From: Armatimonadota bacterium
GTDB taxonomy: Bacteria; Armatimonadota; Fimbriimonadia; Fimbriimonadales; Fimbriimonadaceae
DNA: 64,000 nucleotides
Direction: 5' to 3'
NCBI GenBank assembly: GCA_018268355.1
Contig: JAFDWR010000001.1
Coordinates: 831,858-895,857 of the forward strand
The notes beneath the pieces were generated by a model that was not told the DNA's origin, ran no database searches, and was given only the letters and a program-made list of their open reading frames with translations. Positions within the stretch are counted from its first letter, which is position 1; each line of letters opens with the position of its first letter. Below are positions 10,325-64,000 of the stretch, piece after piece. The translations under genes were made by a program, and so were the position numbers.

Positions 10325-11296
10325 TTACTTGAGTCGGACGCTGTCGATCCAGAGCTTGGCGGTGCTGCGTGCAGTCTCGTCGGTGTGACGATTCAGCATC
10401 CGGCAACTCCACGCCGTCGAACCCTTGATCGCCACCGCAAGGGTGACTCGGCCCACTCCCGCGACCTCGAGGTCCACCGCTCGACCGGGCATTCCGTCGA
10501 ACGTGCGACTGTAGGCGTTGCGGATCATGTCGGGCCGAATCCCGGGCGAGATCGAGGCGAGGTCCGAGAACGCATCCTTGAGCAGAGTGTCGGTCGAGAC
10601 CTTGCTCGAATCCTTCAGCTTCATCGTCATCGCGCGGACATCGAACGACTTGTCGGCAAAGACGGCCACGTCGCACTCGCTCGCATAGTCCGGCGTTCGT
10701 CCGCCCTCAATCCAAGGCGTGTGCGGCATCCGAATGCCGATCTGCATGCGGTTCGACGACCAAGCCTGCCAGAGCCGACCATCCGCGCCGAACTCCTGGA
10801 TTCCAAAGCTGTTGCCACCCTGGGTCACGCGCAGTGACTGGAAGGCGCGGCTCAGCCACTCCATGGCGTCGGCATTGCGTCGGTCTCCGCGAAGGTCGAT
10901 CTCCCAGAGTTCGCCGCCCGCTTGGATCACGCCGTAATCCACGACCTTCTCCGCGCCATCGGTCATCAGGAGGTTGTAACGGAGCATTCGCGAAGGCTGA
11001 TTGGCGAGGCTGAATCGAAGGGTCGAGCCACCCTTGAACGAGCGAACGTCGCTTCCACCGCGAAGGGCTTTGCCGATGTCGGTGACGTAAAGGTCGAGGT
11101 TCTTATCGGTCAGCGTGCGGCGAACCCGCTTGAGCTTTAGGGTCAGGCCTTCTCCGCTGCCCGAGTAGCCCGCCTTGGCGTCGCCTTGAACCTCGAACGG
11201 GAGGTCGAGGCTGAGAATTCCGCCAAAGGAAGCCCGAATCGGCTCATCCGTGTGCCGTGCCAGTGCCAAGAGGCACATCGTCGAAACGAGTGACAT
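10325..11296 (-). CDS. hypothetical protein, probably exported
   Basis: A 323-residue protein I do not recognise. The short N-terminus MSLVSTMCLLALARH is weakly signal-like. The body looks like two similar alpha/beta halves: the first ends AMEWLSRAFQSLRV (about 145-158) and the second ends ARSTAKLWIDSVRLK at the C-terminus, suggesting an internal duplication of a PsbP/DUF1795-like fold. This is only pattern resemblance. It is monocistronic on the minus strand, downstream of the CvfB-like gene by 48 bp. Confidence 0.5.
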   Translation of the reverse strand: MSLVSTMCLLALARHTDEPIRASFGGILSLDLPFEVQGDAKAGYSGSGEGLTLKLKRVRRTLTDKNLDLYVTDIGKALRGGSDVRSFKGGSTLRFSLANQPSRMLRYNLLMTDGAEKVVDYGVIQAGGELWEIDLRGDRRNADAMEWLSRAFQSLRVTQGGNSFGIQEFGADGRLWQAWSSNRMQIGIRMPHTPWIEGGRTPDYASECDVAVFADKSFDVRAMTMKLKDSSKVSTDTLLKDAFSDLASISPGIRPDMIRNAYSRTFDGMPGRAVDLEVAGVGRVTLAVAIKGSTAWSCRMLNRHTDETARSTAKLWIDSVRLK

Positions 11297-11344
11297 ACCG
11301 GTATTGAACCCTCAAAACGCAAAAGCGTTACGCCGACGTGGGTG

Positions 11345-12163
11345 CTACTTTTGCTGGTTCACCGCGCGGAGGCCATAGGGTTCGATCGCGATTTTGCCCT
11401 CTTTCAGCAGCATCCCGACCCCTCGTTTGAACATCGCCTTGCTAAATCCAGTCCGCCGCTGGATCTCGGCCGGGTCGGACTTGTCGTGGAGGTCGAGGAA
11501 GCCGTCCTTTAGGCTGAGTAGCTCGAGAATCTTGTCCCGCGCGCCGAGGTCGCCCATCCGTCCGACCGGATTGGCGATGAGCTGGAGTTCGGGGTCCGTG
11601 GCCCGGACATAGGCCACCTTTTTTTCGCCGAGCTCGCCGTAGATTCCGGGGACAAAACCATACGCCTTCCCTTCCACGACCACCTGCCAGCCCGCCGAGC
11701 GCTCCTCCGCGAGTTGCACCTCGACCTTGTCGCCGATCTCGAGCCCTTCGATCTCGCCGAGGTGGCGCTTCAGTCGCATCGACGCGGCAGGGCGGCGGGT
11801 CACGGGGTCCAGGTAGACCGCGACGAACACCGTCATGCCTTCCACGATTTCACTTCGCCACTCACGGTGGGGCAGGAGGAGGTCGCGTTCGAGGCCCCAG
11901 TCGAGAAACGCACCGGGAGCGGCCACACTCACCACCTTCAAAGCGGCAAAATCGCCAATCTGGGCAATCGGGCGGCGCGTGGTGGCAATCGGGCGGTCTT
12001 CCGAGTCGAGATAGACGAAAACGTCGAGGCTCTCGCCGACATCCCACTTCGGATTCACCTCTTTGATCGGCAAAAGCACGTCCTCGGTGTCCGAGGTGAG
12101 ATACAGGCCGTGGGACGCCTTTCGAATGACCACGAGGTGCTGGACACGGCCGATTTGCAACAT
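11345..12163 (-). CDS. CvfB-like S1 RNA-binding protein
   Basis: A 272-residue cytosolic protein of the CvfB/YitL family. The family layout is present: successive S1-like OB-fold segments (each with a D/P-x-x-RP or GYLDSEDRPIATTR type strand, near residues 50-65 and again around MTVFVAVYLDPVTRRPAASMRL), a third barrel (KAYGFVPG), then a C-terminal winged helix (DPAEIQRRTGFSKAMFKRGVGMLLKEGKI). CvfB proteins bind RNA and affect virulence-gene or ribosome functions in Firmicutes. I picked the ATG at 12163 (MLQIGRV) because upstream in-frame residues do not fit the S1 start. Confidence 0.85.
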   Translation of the reverse strand: MLQIGRVQHLVVIRKASHGLYLTSDTEDVLLPIKEVNPKWDVGESLDVFVYLDSEDRPIATTRRPIAQIGDFAALKVVSVAAPGAFLDWGLERDLLLPHREWRSEIVEGMTVFVAVYLDPVTRRPAASMRLKRHLGEIEGLEIGDKVEVQLAEERSAGWQVVVEGKAYGFVPGIYGELGEKKVAYVRATDPELQLIANPVGRMGDLGARDKILELLSLKDGFLDLHDKSDPAEIQRRTGFSKAMFKRGVGMLLKEGKIAIEPYGLRAVNQQK

Positions 12164-58811: not shown

Positions 58812-58849
58812 TTGCATAAATTGCAGCTACTGTGCATAATATGCGTATG
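58812..58849 (+). promoter_or_regulatory. argR promoter with two ArgR-like boxes
   Basis: -35 TTGCAT (58812-58817), 17-bp spacer, -10 CATAAT (58835-58840), then the ATG at 58847. Two small palindromes overlay it: TGCA-N5-TGCA (58813-58825) and GCATAATATGC (58834-58844). Their centres are 20 bp apart, nearly the 21-bp spacing of paired ARG boxes in E. coli. The halves TGCAT resemble the ARG-box TGAAT. Autoregulation by ArgR is likely. Confidence 0.75.
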
Positions 58850-59281
58850 TCAGAAACGAAAGAGTCGCGCATGGCTCTCATTAGGCGTCTCTTGATCAAC
58901 CTGGAGGTGCCCAGCCAGGAGGCGCTCGTCCGCGAGCTCACCCAGGCCGGATTCGCGGTCACCCAGAGCAGCATTAGCCGTGACCTCGCCGATATCGGAG
59001 TCGAGAAGGTGCGCGGACGCTACGTCCTGCGCGCCGCCACCGAGGCGCAAGTCCTCGGCATCCACTCGGCACGCCCCGCCGGTCCCAACCTGCTTGTGCT
59101 GCGGACCTCGGTCGGTGCGGCCCAAGTCGTGGCCTACAAGCTCGACCAGCTCGGGCTCAACGAGATCGTTGGCACGGTGGCGGGTGACGACACGATCTTC
59201 GTCGCCACGACAGGAACTGAGGACCAGTTCTTGATCATGAAGGCACTCGGCCTCGCCGAAGCGACAAGGAAGGGCCGATGA
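58847..59281 (+). CDS. argR: arginine repressor ArgR
   Basis: A 144-residue regulator with an N-terminal winged helix (LIRRLLINLEVPSQEALVRELTQAGFAVTQSSISRDLADIGVEKVRGRYVL) and a C-terminal arginine-binding domain with the GTVAGDDTIFVAT hexamer/arginine motif. I chose ATG 58847, which is six bases after the -10, among several in-frame candidates (GTG 58832, ATG 58841, ATG 58871). It is the first gene of the arginine operon; the stop overlaps argG. It presumably represses the whole operon when arginine is plentiful. Confidence 0.93.
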   Translation: MSETKESRMALIRRLLINLEVPSQEALVRELTQAGFAVTQSSISRDLADIGVEKVRGRYVLRAATEAQVLGIHSARPAGPNLLVLRTSVGAAQVVAYKLDQLGLNEIVGTVAGDDTIFVATTGTEDQFLIMKALGLAEATRKGR

Positions 59282-60471
59282 AGGTCGCGCTCGCCTTTTC
59301 CGGTGGTCTCGACACGAGTTGGTGCGTGCCCGTGCTCCGCGAAATGGGTCACGAAATCGTCACCGTGACCGTCGATGTGGGTGGCTTCACCCCGGCGGAG
59401 ATCGACGAGATCAGGGAGCGCAGCGCCGCGCTTGGCGTGACCGAACACGTCTTTGTCGACGCCTCCGAGGCGTTCTTTGACGAGATGATCCGGTTCCTCA
59501 TCGCCGGCAACGTTCTGCGCGGCGGAACCTATCCCCTCTGCGTCGGGGCCGAGCGGTCGCTCCAGGCCCGTGAGGTCGCCAAGGTCGCCCAGGCAGTAGG
59601 TGCAGAGGCGATTGGCCACGGCTGCACCGCCGCCGGCAATGACCAGTTCCGATTTGAGACCGCGCTGCGGACCCTCGCGCCCGACCTCGTCATCCTCGCT
59701 CCCGTCCGCGACCAAGCTCCCGCCCGCGCGGCCCAGCTTGCCCTCCTCAGCGCGAACGGCATCGACTTCCCTGCCCAAAAGGCGGCCTACAGCATCAATT
59801 CCGGCCTCTGGGGCGTGACGATTGGCGGCGAAGAGACCACCGGCACCGACCGAACGATCCCTGAGTCGGCGTGGCAACGCACCCGAGGTGCTCTCGACAC
59901 CCTTAAGCCCGCGACCCAGCACATCCTCGGCTTTGAGCAAGGCATCCCTGCATCTCTCGACGGCGTGAAGATGTCGCCGATTGAGGTGATCCGCGCAGTC
60001 GACGAACTCGCCGCCAGCTATGGCCTTGGACGGGGCATCCACCTCGGCGAGACGATCCTTGGCATCAAGGGCCGCGTCGCCTTTGAAGCACCCGCCGCGA
60101 GTGTCATCATCCCCGCCCACCGCGAGCTAGAAAAGCTCACCCTGACCAAGCGACAGATCAGCATGAAGGATGCGGTCGCCGCGATGTATGGCGAATGGGT
60201 CCACGAAGGCCTCGCCACCGAGCCAGCCGCCCGCCACGCAGAGGCACTCTTCATCGACTCCCAGAAGCACGTCACCGGCGAGGTCCACTTTGAACTTCGC
60301 ACCGGCAGCCTCTTCTTTACCGGCGTCACCAGCCCCTACTCGCTCCACGCTGCCTCACGCGCGGTTTACGGCGAAGCGGTCGGCGAATGGACGCCGGATG
60401 ATGCGCGCGGCTTCGGTCGGCTCTATGGCCTGAGCGGCATTCTCCACGCCCGCACGGAGGTGAAGCCGTGA
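59278..60471 (+). CDS. argG: argininosuccinate synthase
   Basis: A 397-residue enzyme that joins citrulline and aspartate with ATP. The ATP PP-loop is AFSGGLDTSW (7-16); other markers are GHGCTAAGNDQFRFE, ILAPVRDQ, YSINSGLWG and the C-terminal region. The order and length fit ArgG. It is translationally coupled to argR (ATGA) and to the P-loop gene behind it (GTGA). In this operon the argG substrate citrulline would be derived from an N-acyl-citrulline after deacylation, since the carbamoyltransferase is of the acylated type. Confidence 0.95.
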   Translation: MKVALAFSGGLDTSWCVPVLREMGHEIVTVTVDVGGFTPAEIDEIRERSAALGVTEHVFVDASEAFFDEMIRFLIAGNVLRGGTYPLCVGAERSLQAREVAKVAQAVGAEAIGHGCTAAGNDQFRFETALRTLAPDLVILAPVRDQAPARAAQLALLSANGIDFPAQKAAYSINSGLWGVTIGGEETTGTDRTIPESAWQRTRGALDTLKPATQHILGFEQGIPASLDGVKMSPIEVIRAVDELAASYGLGRGIHLGETILGIKGRVAFEAPAASVIIPAHRELEKLTLTKRQISMKDAVAAMYGEWVHEGLATEPAARHAEALFIDSQKHVTGEVHFELRTGSLFFTGVTSPYSLHAASRAVYGEAVGEWTPDDARGFGRLYGLSGILHARTEVKP

Positions 60472-61523
60472 GGCCCCTCTTGCTCGACAAGATCGCGAGC
60501 GTCACCCTCAATTGCAACCTCCGTCGCGAGGTGCGTGTGGCCGACGAGTACGCCTGCCGCGAAGGCGACGTCATTGCGGTGCGCCTGCTCACAAGCAAGA
60601 CAAACTACAACGCCCTTGAGCTGAGTACGGGTCGTATGGCTACCCTCAAAGAGGGCGACGTCTTTGCGGGGGCTCTCGGCCACCGAAACGCGGTCCAAGG
60701 CTATGCGGGTCACATCCCCACCGTGCTCAAAACCGGTGATGAGGTCAACCTCCTCAACCTTGGCGGCGTCCTCGGGATCTGCGATTCTCATTCTCCCATC
60801 GTCGGTCCGCCCCACGTCTGCGAGGTCCTCGGCAACGTCCTCACCTTCCCCGACCTGCACTCCCGGCGCGGCGTCCCCGCGAACATCGCGAGCAACTGCC
60901 CCGAACTCGACTCCAAGCTGAGCGACGACCTTCCGCCCATCATCGCGGTGGCAGGGACGAGCATGAACAGCGGCAAGACCGAGGCCTGCCTGACCGTCAT
61001 CCAGCGGCTGGTCCACCACGGTTATAAGGTTTCTGCCGCCAAGGCGACCGGCGTGAGCCTTCGCCGCGACATCCTCGGGATGGAGGATGCAGGGGCGAAG
61101 GAGATCATGATCTTCACCGACCTCGGTGTCGTCACCACCCAGAATTCGAACGCCCCCGGGCTGGCGAGGACGATGCTCAACCGCCTCGCCGCCAACAAGC
61201 CCGACGTGATCGTCCTCGAGCTTGGCGATGGCCTCATCGGCGACTACGGCGTCAGCGCGATCCTCAACGAGAAGGACATCGTCAAAGCCCTCCACTGCAT
61301 CATTCTCGCCGCTGCCGACCCCGTCGGTGCGCTCGGCGGCGTCAACGTCCTCACCGAGCGGCACGGCCGAACGCCGAGCCTGATCACCGGTCCTGCGACC
61401 GACAACATCGCCGGCATCCGCGTCATCGAGCGCGAAACTGGCGTTCGCTCGCTCAACTCTCGACACTCTGCGGCCGAAATCGCCGAGCACCTTCTCAAAT
61501 CCATGGAGCACTCTCATGCCTAA
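60468..61523 (+). CDS. P-loop (SIMIBI-like) protein of unknown function in the arginine operon
   Basis: A 351-residue protein I do not recognise as a known enzyme. The N-terminal part (about 20-130) is beta-rich (DEYACREGDVIAVRLL, LKEGDVFAGALGHRN, GDEVNLLNLGGVLGICD). A P-loop follows: VAGTSMNSGKTEACLTV (GTSMNSGKT, 163-171) with a second acidic strand VIVLELGDGLIGDYGV and TERHGRTPSLITGPATDN. The fold is near dethiobiotin synthetase/DUF1611. DUF1611 includes a D-glutamate N-acetyltransferase (DgcN), so acyl-glutamate chemistry is conceivable. Overlaps both argG and argC. Confidence 0.7.
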   Translation: MRPLLLDKIASVTLNCNLRREVRVADEYACREGDVIAVRLLTSKTNYNALELSTGRMATLKEGDVFAGALGHRNAVQGYAGHIPTVLKTGDEVNLLNLGGVLGICDSHSPIVGPPHVCEVLGNVLTFPDLHSRRGVPANIASNCPELDSKLSDDLPPIIAVAGTSMNSGKTEACLTVIQRLVHHGYKVSAAKATGVSLRRDILGMEDAGAKEIMIFTDLGVVTTQNSNAPGLARTMLNRLAANKPDVIVLELGDGLIGDYGVSAILNEKDIVKALHCIILAAADPVGALGGVNVLTERHGRTPSLITGPATDNIAGIRVIERETGVRSLNSRHSAAEIAEHLLKSMEHSHA

Positions 61524-62565
61524 GAAATCCATCCCTGCCGTCGTGCTTGGCGGCAGCGGCTACGTCGCTGCGGAAATGCTCGGCCAGCTGTTCAACCACC
61601 CGTCATTCTTTGTCGAGACCGTGGTTTCGTCGTCCAACGAAGGCGTCCGCGTGGACGAAGTTTTCCCGCACCTCACCGGCGTGGCAGAAGACCTCACGTT
61701 TGGCTCCATTGAATCGGCCCGATCGCGCATCCAGGGTCGACGGCAGGTCGCCGTGTTCAGCGCGATGCCGCATGGCGAAACCGCCGGAATTCTCGCCGAC
61801 CTTTTGCAGGGTGAATCGGCGGCGAAGGTTGTCGACGTTTCTGCCGACTTCCGCCATGTCGACCCCGAGCTTTATCAATCGATCTACGGAAAGGCTCACC
61901 CCGCTCCTGAGCTCCTGCGCCAATTCCACTGCGGGCTGCCCGACCTCGAAAAGTCCGATCCCGGCGACTTCATCAGTCACCCGGGCTGCTTCTCGACCGG
62001 GATCACCCTCGGGCTTGCGGGTCTCTACGCCGGCAACTGGATCGAGCCGAGCGTCCAGGTGAGCGCGGTGACCGGCAGCACCGGCGCGGGTCGCCAGCCG
62101 GGCGCGGGCACCCACCACCCGCACCGCCAAAGCTCGATGTGGGCGTACCAGCCGCTGGTTCACCGCCACACGCCCGAGATCACTACCCTGCTCAAGCCCT
62201 TTGCGCCGGAGGCCCAGATTGCCTTCGTGCCCCATTCGGGTCCGTTCTCGCGCGGGATCCATTCGACGATCTTTGGGCGATTGCAGACCCCAGCGTGGGC
62301 CAAGGACATCGTCGAGAGCGTCGCCGCATTTTATGCACATTCCCCGTTCATCAAGGTCTCGGAAAAGATGCCGACCCTGAAAGAAGTTGTGGGCACCAAC
62401 CGTTGCCACCTTGGCGTCGCGGTCTCAGGCACTCAGGTGATCGTCACGTCGGTGATGGACAACCTGGTGAAAGGCGCGGGCGGCGGCGCGATTCAGTGGA
62501 TGAACCGCCTCTTTGGACTCGATGAGAAGGAGGGGCTTGTACATGCCGTCCCTGGCTGGATCTAG
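61516..62565 (+). CDS. argC: N-acyl-glutamyl-phosphate reductase (ArgC)
   Basis: A 349-residue reductase that makes the N-acyl-glutamate semialdehyde in arginine synthesis. The NAD(P) fold motif is VVLGGSGYVAAEML, and the catalytic cysteine lies in SHPGCFSTG (HPGC-x-x-T/S form). The segment VTGSTGAGRQPGAGTHHPHR is more like the Bacteroidetes type than the E. coli type from what I remember. Start overlaps the P-loop gene by 8 bp; the last 23 bp overlap argD. No argB or argJ/argE lies in the window; they may follow downstream. Confidence 0.92.
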   Translation: MPKKSIPAVVLGGSGYVAAEMLGQLFNHPSFFVETVVSSSNEGVRVDEVFPHLTGVAEDLTFGSIESARSRIQGRRQVAVFSAMPHGETAGILADLLQGESAAKVVDVSADFRHVDPELYQSIYGKAHPAPELLRQFHCGLPDLEKSDPGDFISHPGCFSTGITLGLAGLYAGNWIEPSVQVSAVTGSTGAGRQPGAGTHHPHRQSSMWAYQPLVHRHTPEITTLLKPFAPEAQIAFVPHSGPFSRGIHSTIFGRLQTPAWAKDIVESVAAFYAHSPFIKVSEKMPTLKEVVGTNRCHLGVAVSGTQVIVTSVMDNLVKGAGGGAIQWMNRLFGLDEKEGLVHAVPGWI

Positions 62566-63691
62566 TCCCGAGGTTCAGGTCTATTCGCGCTTGCCGGTCA
62601 CCCTGGTTCGGGGTGAGGGCTGCCGCGTGTGGGACGAGGATGGCAAGGCTTACCTCGACCTTTACGGCGGCCACGCGGTCGCCGCTCTCGGCTACGGACA
62701 CCCGGCCCTGACCCACGCGATTGCCACCCAAGCCCAGGACCTGCTTTTCCAGACCAACGCGGTGCATCTCCAGGTTCGTGACCGGGCGATTGCGCGCCTC
62801 GTCCAGGCCGCGCCCGAGGGCTTGGATCAGGCCTTTTTGGTGAGCAGCGGTGCGGAGGCGAACGAGAATGCCCTTCGACTCGCGTTCCTGAAGACCAAGC
62901 GGTCGCGCGTCACCGCGCTGACCGGCGCGTTTCATGGCCGCACCGCCGCGGCGGGGGCGATCACCTATGGCAATGCGGGTTGGTTCGGCTTTCCCCAGGC
63001 TCCGTTTGAGGTCGATTGGCTTACTCCCGAGGCTTTCGACGCGATTGAAACCGCAATCACGGCGGACACTGCCGCCGTCATCTTTGAGCCGGTCCAAGGC
63101 GTCGCCGGGGCGGTTGATTTGAGTCCCGAGTTCGCCCAGCGGGTTGCTGCACGGTGCCGCGAGGTTGGCGCCGTATTGATCGTCGATGAGGTCCAAACCG
63201 GAGTGGGACGAACGGGAACCACCTTTGCGGTCGAATGGCTCGGCATCAATCCCGACATCCTCACCACCGCGAAGGGGCTTGGTGGCGGCTTCCCCGTCGC
63301 GGCCGTGCTGTGTAGCGCAGCGATTGGCGATGGAATTGGCAAAGGCACGCTTGGGACGACGTTTGGCGGCGGGCCAGTGGCCTGCGCGGCCATAGAGGCG
63401 GTCCTCGGCGTGGTTGACGAGCCAAGTTTCCTCGCTGCTGTGCGTCGGCGGGCTGAACTCCTCGCCGAGACCGCCCTCGCGGCGGGAGTCCACCGCGTCA
63501 CCGGCATGGGTTTCCTCATGGGTCTCCACGTCGGTCAACCGGCGGGTCCGGTCCGGCAAATGCTCCTTGAGAAGGGCTTCCTCACCGGCGACGCGAAGAA
63601 CCCCGAAGTCGTCCGCCTTTTGCCGCCGCTGATCCTCAGCGACGCGGAAATCGCCGAGTTCGGAACTGCCCTCGCGGAGGTCCTCCGATGA
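62543..63691 (+). CDS. argD: N-acylornithine aminotransferase (ArgD)
   Basis: A 382-residue class III PLP aminotransferase. Motifs: DGKAYLDLYGGHAVAALGYGHP, VSSGAEANENALRLAF, the PLP lysine in TAKGLGGGFPVAAVL and the TTFGGGPVAC substrate loop. It moves the amino group from glutamate to N-acyl-glutamate semialdehyde. I chose ATG 62543 because AGGAGG lies upstream at the right distance; the longer form from 62513 has no added support. The stop overlaps the next start (ATGA). Confidence 0.93.
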   Translation: MPSLAGSSPEVQVYSRLPVTLVRGEGCRVWDEDGKAYLDLYGGHAVAALGYGHPALTHAIATQAQDLLFQTNAVHLQVRDRAIARLVQAAPEGLDQAFLVSSGAEANENALRLAFLKTKRSRVTALTGAFHGRTAAAGAITYGNAGWFGFPQAPFEVDWLTPEAFDAIETAITADTAAVIFEPVQGVAGAVDLSPEFAQRVAARCREVGAVLIVDEVQTGVGRTGTTFAVEWLGINPDILTTAKGLGGGFPVAAVLCSAAIGDGIGKGTLGTTFGGGPVACAAIEAVLGVVDEPSFLAAVRRRAELLAETALAAGVHRVTGMGFLMGLHVGQPAGPVRQMLLEKGFLTGDAKNPEVVRLLPPLILSDAEIAEFGTALAEVLR

Positions 63692-64000
63692 AGCATTTCT
63701 TGAGCCTCAGCCAGTTCACCCGCGACGAGGTCCAGGCCCTCGTCGACCTTGCCCGCGAGCTGAAGGCGAACCCGATTGGCGAGCGGATGCACCGCAAGGT
63801 GGTTGGCCTGCTCTTCATGAACCCGAGCCTCCGAACCCTCGCGAGCTTCCAAGCAGGCGTCGGCCATCAGGGCGGAATATCGGTCGTCATCCAACCCGGC
63901 GCAGGCAGTTGGAGCCTCGAGCTTCGTGATGGCGTGGTGATGGACGGCGAGGCAGTGGAGCATGTGCGCGAGGCGATTCCGGTCCTTGCCTCGTACTGCG
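63688..64000 (+). CDS. N-acylornithine carbamoyltransferase (AOTCase/SOTCase type), 5' part
   Basis: The first 104 residues of a carbamoyltransferase; the rest is beyond the window. It matches N-acetyl/N-succinylornithine carbamoyltransferases rather than ordinary ArgF: FMNPSLRTLASFQAG (the family motif; carbamoyl-phosphate residues Ser, Arg and Thr kept), VVIQPGAGSWSLE, DGVVMDGE and EHVREAIPVL. The residue that sets acetyl versus succinyl preference (Glu92 in Xanthomonas AOTCase, Pro90 in Bacteroides SOTCase) appears here as Val90 by my alignment. Also the last arginine of the SxRTR motif is Leu51. Confidence 0.85.
   Translation, partial: MKHFLSLSQFTRDEVQALVDLARELKANPIGERMHRKVVGLLFMNPSLRTLASFQAGVGHQGGISVVIQPGAGSWSLELRDGVVMDGEAVEHVREAIPVLASYC

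Follow-up and report, generated by a model that had tools for sequence, protein, structure and literature searches.

Arginine operons in bacteria from at least eight phyla carry a gene, here called X, that very probably supplies the first step of the pathway, the N-acylation of L-glutamate, whatever the acyl donor. Its product would form N-acyl-L-glutamate, the committed first arginine intermediate, most likely in succinylated form, in hosts that would use an acyl-citrulline pathway (argB, argC, argD, an SOTC/AOTC-like transcarbamylase, an M20 deacylase, argG and argH) with neither ArgA nor ArgJ, and it may be driven by ATP instead of being fed by acyl-CoA. The fullest version of this proposal, put forward tentatively, makes X an ATP-dependent N-succinyl-L-glutamate synthetase: as a P-loop amidoligase with a novel N-terminal domain, it would start the pathway by joining free succinate to glutamate, with no need of coenzyme A, in hundreds of bacterial species. 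The gene lies near the end of the window, the whole stretch of 64,000 nucleotides analysed (G000:C1:831858-895857), which comes from an Armatimonadota genome of 2.7 Mb in seven contigs, estimated as 97.7% complete. The arginine genes of the window, with the parts of X, are:

58832..59281, + strand: argR, the arginine repressor gene, with which the operon begins
59278..60471, + strand: argG, argininosuccinate synthase (passes the NCBIfam cut-off of TIGR00032)
60468..61523, + strand: gene X, 351 amino acids, GTG start, proposed N-acyl- (probably N-succinyl-) L-glutamate synthase
60468..60926, + strand: N-terminal domain of X, beta-rich in the predicted structure, residues 1 to about 153-155, with no confident PDB match
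Residues 156-351, + strand: C-terminal alpha/beta P-loop domain of X in the predicted structure
60954..60980, + strand: Walker A motif of X, GTSMNSGKT, residues 163-171; K170 and T171 are invariant in the 55-member alignment
61041..61043, + strand: codon of invariant Lys192 of X, which aligns with Lys37 of dethiobiotin synthetase (DTBS)
61218..61220, + strand: codon of invariant Glu251 of X, in an ELGDG motif; judged by the motif, the probable counterpart of the acidic Mg site of DTBS
61516..62565, + strand: argC, N-acyl-gamma-glutamyl-phosphate reductase (passes the NCBIfam cut-off of TIGR01850)
62513..63691, + strand: argD, N-acylornithine aminotransferase family, start codon uncertain
63688..64000, + strand: N-acylornithine transcarbamylase, SOTC/AOTC-like, continuing beyond the window (full gene L003:9688-10692)

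Read past the end of the window, the operon runs argR-argG-X-argC-argD-SOTC/AOTC-like transcarbamylase-argB-M20 deacylase-argH, and glutamate N-acylation is the sole step of the pathway for which it holds no other gene. As the first-pass annotation of this DNA had observed, X overlaps its neighbours on both sides, sharing 4 bp with argG and 8 bp with argC according to the reading-frame coordinates. An alignment of 55 family members (42-75% identity) contains 64 invariant columns, so that X must be a real gene and not a chance reading frame. Its product nevertheless falls below every Pfam and NCBIfam cut-off in a profile search, with weak P-loop matches to MobB, DUF1611 and CbiA, and a sequence comparison with solved structures gave no convincing match.

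When 84,980 species genomes were scanned, at least 437 relatives of X came up, and the best 80 were examined for their genomic context. Their record titles place them in Armatimonadota, Gammaproteobacteria, Myxococcota (Corallococcus, Myxococcus), Acidobacteriota (Geothrix), Phycisphaerae, Gemmatimonadota, Eisenbacteria and Elusimicrobia. Every one of them has arginine genes for neighbours, and in 79 the next gene after X is argC, the contig of the remaining one ending after X; within this set X always stands upstream of argC, while the order of the other genes varies. Within the home phylum, the Armatimonadota, a full X is found in 24 of 251 genomes, 23 from the same family (Fimbriimonadaceae) and one from a sister family, and each of 23 loci sits in an arginine operon; two weaker matches in the phylum both lie outside such operons. 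Taken together, 103 of 103 X loci are in arginine operons, with argC next wherever the contig continues. Several loci depart from the usual picture. Two species of one home-family genus (L056 and L057; G026 and G143) encode a deeply divergent X, at 37-39% identity, in which GKS replaces GKT while the arginine operon is kept. In five operons (L091, L095-L097 and L099) only argR, X, argC, argD and argB are recognised, with argG, the transcarbamylase and argH not nearby. Frameshifts, likely to be sequencing errors, split both X and argB in one single-contig genome (L049:8001-9037 and 11137-11996; G238). Two records under the titles Klebsiella pneumoniae and Methanoregulaceae archaeon (L127, L072) also hold X operons that resemble those found in other phyla, and these titles look wrong.

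The distribution of X is complementary to that of the known enzymes for glutamate acylation. The first-pass annotation had found no argA- or argJ-like gene in the window and held that one elsewhere in the genome could count against a role for X; the search of the complete assembly extends that absence, since nothing matches ArgJ at E<=0.001 and the ArgA model matches only the kinase domain of argB. X itself matches neither TIGR01890, the ArgA model with its kinase-like and GNAT domains, nor PF01960, the ArgJ family. Across the home phylum, ArgJ (PF01960) is encoded by 197 of the 251 genomes and by none of the 24 that have X (Fisher p 7e-19, shared ancestry ignored), and relatives with ArgJ show the gene order argC-argJ-argB with X absent. 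The same holds in an Acidobacteriota sample (n=199; X in 49, ArgJ in 70, both in none; p 1e-11, shared ancestry ignored) and, for ArgA above its cut-off, in Gammaproteobacteria (n=369; X in nine, ArgA in 249, both in none; p 3e-5, shared ancestry ignored). Among 37 X genomes from several phyla, none has ArgJ and none has ArgA above cut-off, and the tested Myxococcus and Corallococcus genomes have neither ArgJ nor ArgA above cut-off, while earlier work on Myxococcus xanthus takes an N-acetylglutamate synthase for granted within a linear pathway (PMC1865377). A classic ArgA was also sought in X genomes and rejected, the model matches being argB kinase domains plus, in some genomes, weak short GNAT matches, of which the home genome has none.

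A distant paralogue of X (E about 1e-31 to 1e-44) serves as a control: the 19 Gammaproteobacteria that have the paralogue and lack X all encode ArgA. This paralogue keeps the P-loop and the Lys motif, and it is found next to either an ABC exporter or an M20 glutamate-carboxypeptidase-like hydrolase, the latter in many cases accompanied by a flavin-reductase-like gene (L214, L216, L220, L224; L217-L219, L221, L223, L225), which is suggestive only as a hint to its function.

Because X forms four separate clades in the home family, two of them inside one genus that is also rich in ArgJ species, the exchange between X and ArgJ has taken place several times. The exclusion could, however, mirror the type of pathway as opposed to the first step alone. 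Nine home-family relatives that lack both X and ArgJ were tested; seven lack a transcarbamylase of the SOTC/AOTC-like kind and two have only a classic-type enzyme, so in this sample X tracks the acyl-citrulline pathway as a whole, and for this reason exclusion by itself does not prove a role in step 1. The assignment leans instead on X being the sole unassigned gene of the operon and on the Bacteroides pathway, which works with the same set of genes plus a GNAT (PMC7311316). X sits in otherwise complete arginine operons without ArgA or ArgJ, the setting expected of an N-acylglutamate synthase, and its locking into arginine operons across phyla, together with the absence of argA and argJ, fits the idea, already voiced in the first-pass annotation, that X acylates glutamate as the missing first step.

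How X might carry out this reaction is suggested by its predicted structure. An AlphaFold2 model built from 55 sequences (pLDDT 94.3, pTM 0.91) agrees with the layout first read from the letters, a beta-rich N-terminal domain followed by a DTBS-like P-loop. Modelled alone (pLDDT 93.3), the N-terminal domain finds nothing convincing by Foldseek (best E 1.1) or VIA-align (best Z 3.1), which does not prove a new fold. The C-terminal domain has near-equal matches to CTP synthase (Z 17.5), the DUF1611 protein 2g0t (17.4), DTBS (16.8), HypB (16.4) and DgcN 7xrj (15.6). Members of the same fold class, for example formate-tetrahydrofolate ligase and CbiA, form amide bonds via acyl phosphates. With K170, T171, K192 and E251 invariant, X combines the fold, the intact Walker A motif and the catalytic Lys that mark the DTBS/CTPS type. 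Since these residues point to an intact phosphoryl-transfer site, ATP-dependent acyl activation is favoured over acyl-CoA transfer, and if X does perform step 1 we lean towards ligation at the expense of ATP.

Alternatively, X could perform the first step as an acyl-CoA-dependent transferase, using succinyl-CoA or acetyl-CoA much as DgcN acts on D-glutamate, with the P-loop holding the phosphates of coenzyme A. This would be in keeping with the C-terminal fold that X has in common with the DUF1611 structures and with 7xrj, which is titled an N-acetyltransferase (Z 15.6-17.4), and with the use of acyl donors of this kind by known acylglutamate synthases (PMC4490483). The fold match is just as good to the ATP-dependent CTP synthase and DTBS, however, and X retains Thr171, Lys192 and Glu251 whereas DUF1611 proteins have GKM in the P-loop, 7xrj and the other solved structures among them (with GKR in 2g0t), and no counterpart of Lys192. 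The sequence link to DUF1611 is weak as well. Membership of the family was rejected at 14 bits against the PF07755 cut-off of 25; profile-profile comparison gave a probability of 6.6% overall and of 0.3% (E 0.18) for a shared N-terminal half, that of X being beta-rich; and the DUF1611 motifs GTD-x3-GKM and ATGQ are absent, the X side of the comparison reading GTCMNSGKT and K-x-TG. We therefore regard the acyl-CoA route as possible though somewhat doubtful. The analogy with DUF1611 and DgcN drawn in the first-pass annotation is weakened by the same comparisons, while its second idea, that X activates an acyl group, is no less likely than transfer from acetyl-CoA, because X keeps ATP-site residues that DUF1611 has lost. 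A true, separate DUF1611 gene is present in the home genome just after a dipeptide-epimerase-like (racemase-like) gene (L001:42-2106; G000:C4), an arrangement resembling the DgcA-DgcN pair, and DUF1611 occurs in 26 of 31 home-family genomes, both with and without X.

The main rival to a role for X in step 1 is a GNAT that has escaped recognition elsewhere in the genome, with X as an accessory or regulatory ATPase or GTPase of the acyl-citrulline pathway. In Bacteroides the acylglutamate step is indeed carried out by a GNAT, BT3761, which by locus tag adjoins argG, BT3760 (PMC7311316). The home genome has 15 GNAT matches, among which a divergent, short N-acetylglutamate synthase is possible, and accessory GTPases exist among MobB- and HypB-like P-loop proteins. 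Against this, NCBIfam names one of the 15 as RimI and none of those scanned as N-acetylglutamate synthase, the best hint scoring 26-39 bits where the cut-off is 280 (one match with an internal stop was left out). No GNAT is conserved near the 103 X operons, and an acylglutamate synthase of this type within the operon or next to it was accordingly rejected. The published gene set of the Bacteroides succinylated pathway contains no such accessory protein (PMC7311316), and in three groups X is present where ArgA and ArgJ are missing. A hidden GNAT is on these grounds unlikely. It is more improbable still that X has some other task in the pathway, for instance carbamoyl phosphate supply, deacylation or protection of another amine: DTBS-type enzymes do use CO2 and ATP, and a recognised M20 gene is not present in all X operons (32 of 80 by a query of the neighbourhood, among the best 80 of at least 437 relatives), but every host requires carbamoyl phosphate for pyrimidines, an M20 deacylase lies beside X in many operons, and ArgJ, which X replaces, does acylation and deacylation only.

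If X is taken as the acylating enzyme, the acyl group can be approached through its partner enzymes. Glu92, Asn185 and Lys302 characterise N-acetylornithine transcarbamylase, whereas the N-succinyl type has A/S/P/V/Q, P and V/I/E at these positions (PMC4581275). In 55 transcarbamylases from X operons, compared in Xanthomonas numbering, position 92 is A/V/Q/P/T/S and never Glu, position 185 is Pro in 51 and position 302 is V/E/I in 36. The home enzyme has Val and Pro at the first two positions, as in SOTC, but an acetyl-type Lys at the third, and it passes the NCBIfam cut-off for N-acetylornithine carbamoyltransferase. The top PDB match of the M20 deacylase is 3ct9, whose deposited name is acetylornithine deacetylase. 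This entry we take to be Bacteroides thetaiotaomicron BT3549, proposed in GapMind as an N-succinylcitrulline desuccinylase. From the SOTC-type residues and the 3ct9 match, succinyl is probably the group attached, in preference to acetyl.

A full-text literature search of papers outside subscription, approached from DUF1611 and arginine, D-glutamate, acetyltransferase, N-succinylglutamate and succinylated intermediates, found no paper describing the X family. The class of function is known; the protein family and its probable chemistry are probably new. Should the proposal hold, X would fill the first arginine step where ArgA and ArgJ are not found, as in Myxococcus, Corallococcus, Geothrix, many Acidobacteriota, Woeseia-like Gammaproteobacteria and Phycisphaerae. 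It would stand in for ArgA and ArgJ without being homologous to them, using a chemistry not previously described for the arginine pathway, and succinylated arginine intermediates would be predicted outside Bacteroidota.

By comparison with known systems, X would share its reaction and place in the pathway with ArgA, ArgJ and the Bacteroides GNAT BT3761, to which it is unrelated in fold, and its genomes lack ArgA and ArgJ. The nearest pathway is the succinylated route of Bacteroides with its SOTC and BT3549 desuccinylase, mirrored in X operons by SOTC-type residues and by an M20 deacylase with 3ct9 as top match; X stands where Bacteroides has a GNAT, and the home transcarbamylase keeps Lys302. 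DUF1611/DgcN (PF07755; 7xrj, 2g0t, 2obn) has the same broad C-terminal P-loop fold, and glutamate would be a common substrate, but it differs from X in its N-terminal domain, in GKM in place of GKT and in the missing Lys192 counterpart, X remaining under the Pfam cut-off. DTBS, the amidoligase domain of CTP synthase and the CbiA-type amidoligases agree with X in fold, in the G-x5-GKT Walker A motif and in a Lys at the position of DTBS Lys37; the likeness in sequence is confined to the P-loop, and X adds a beta-rich N-terminal domain and its setting among arginine genes.
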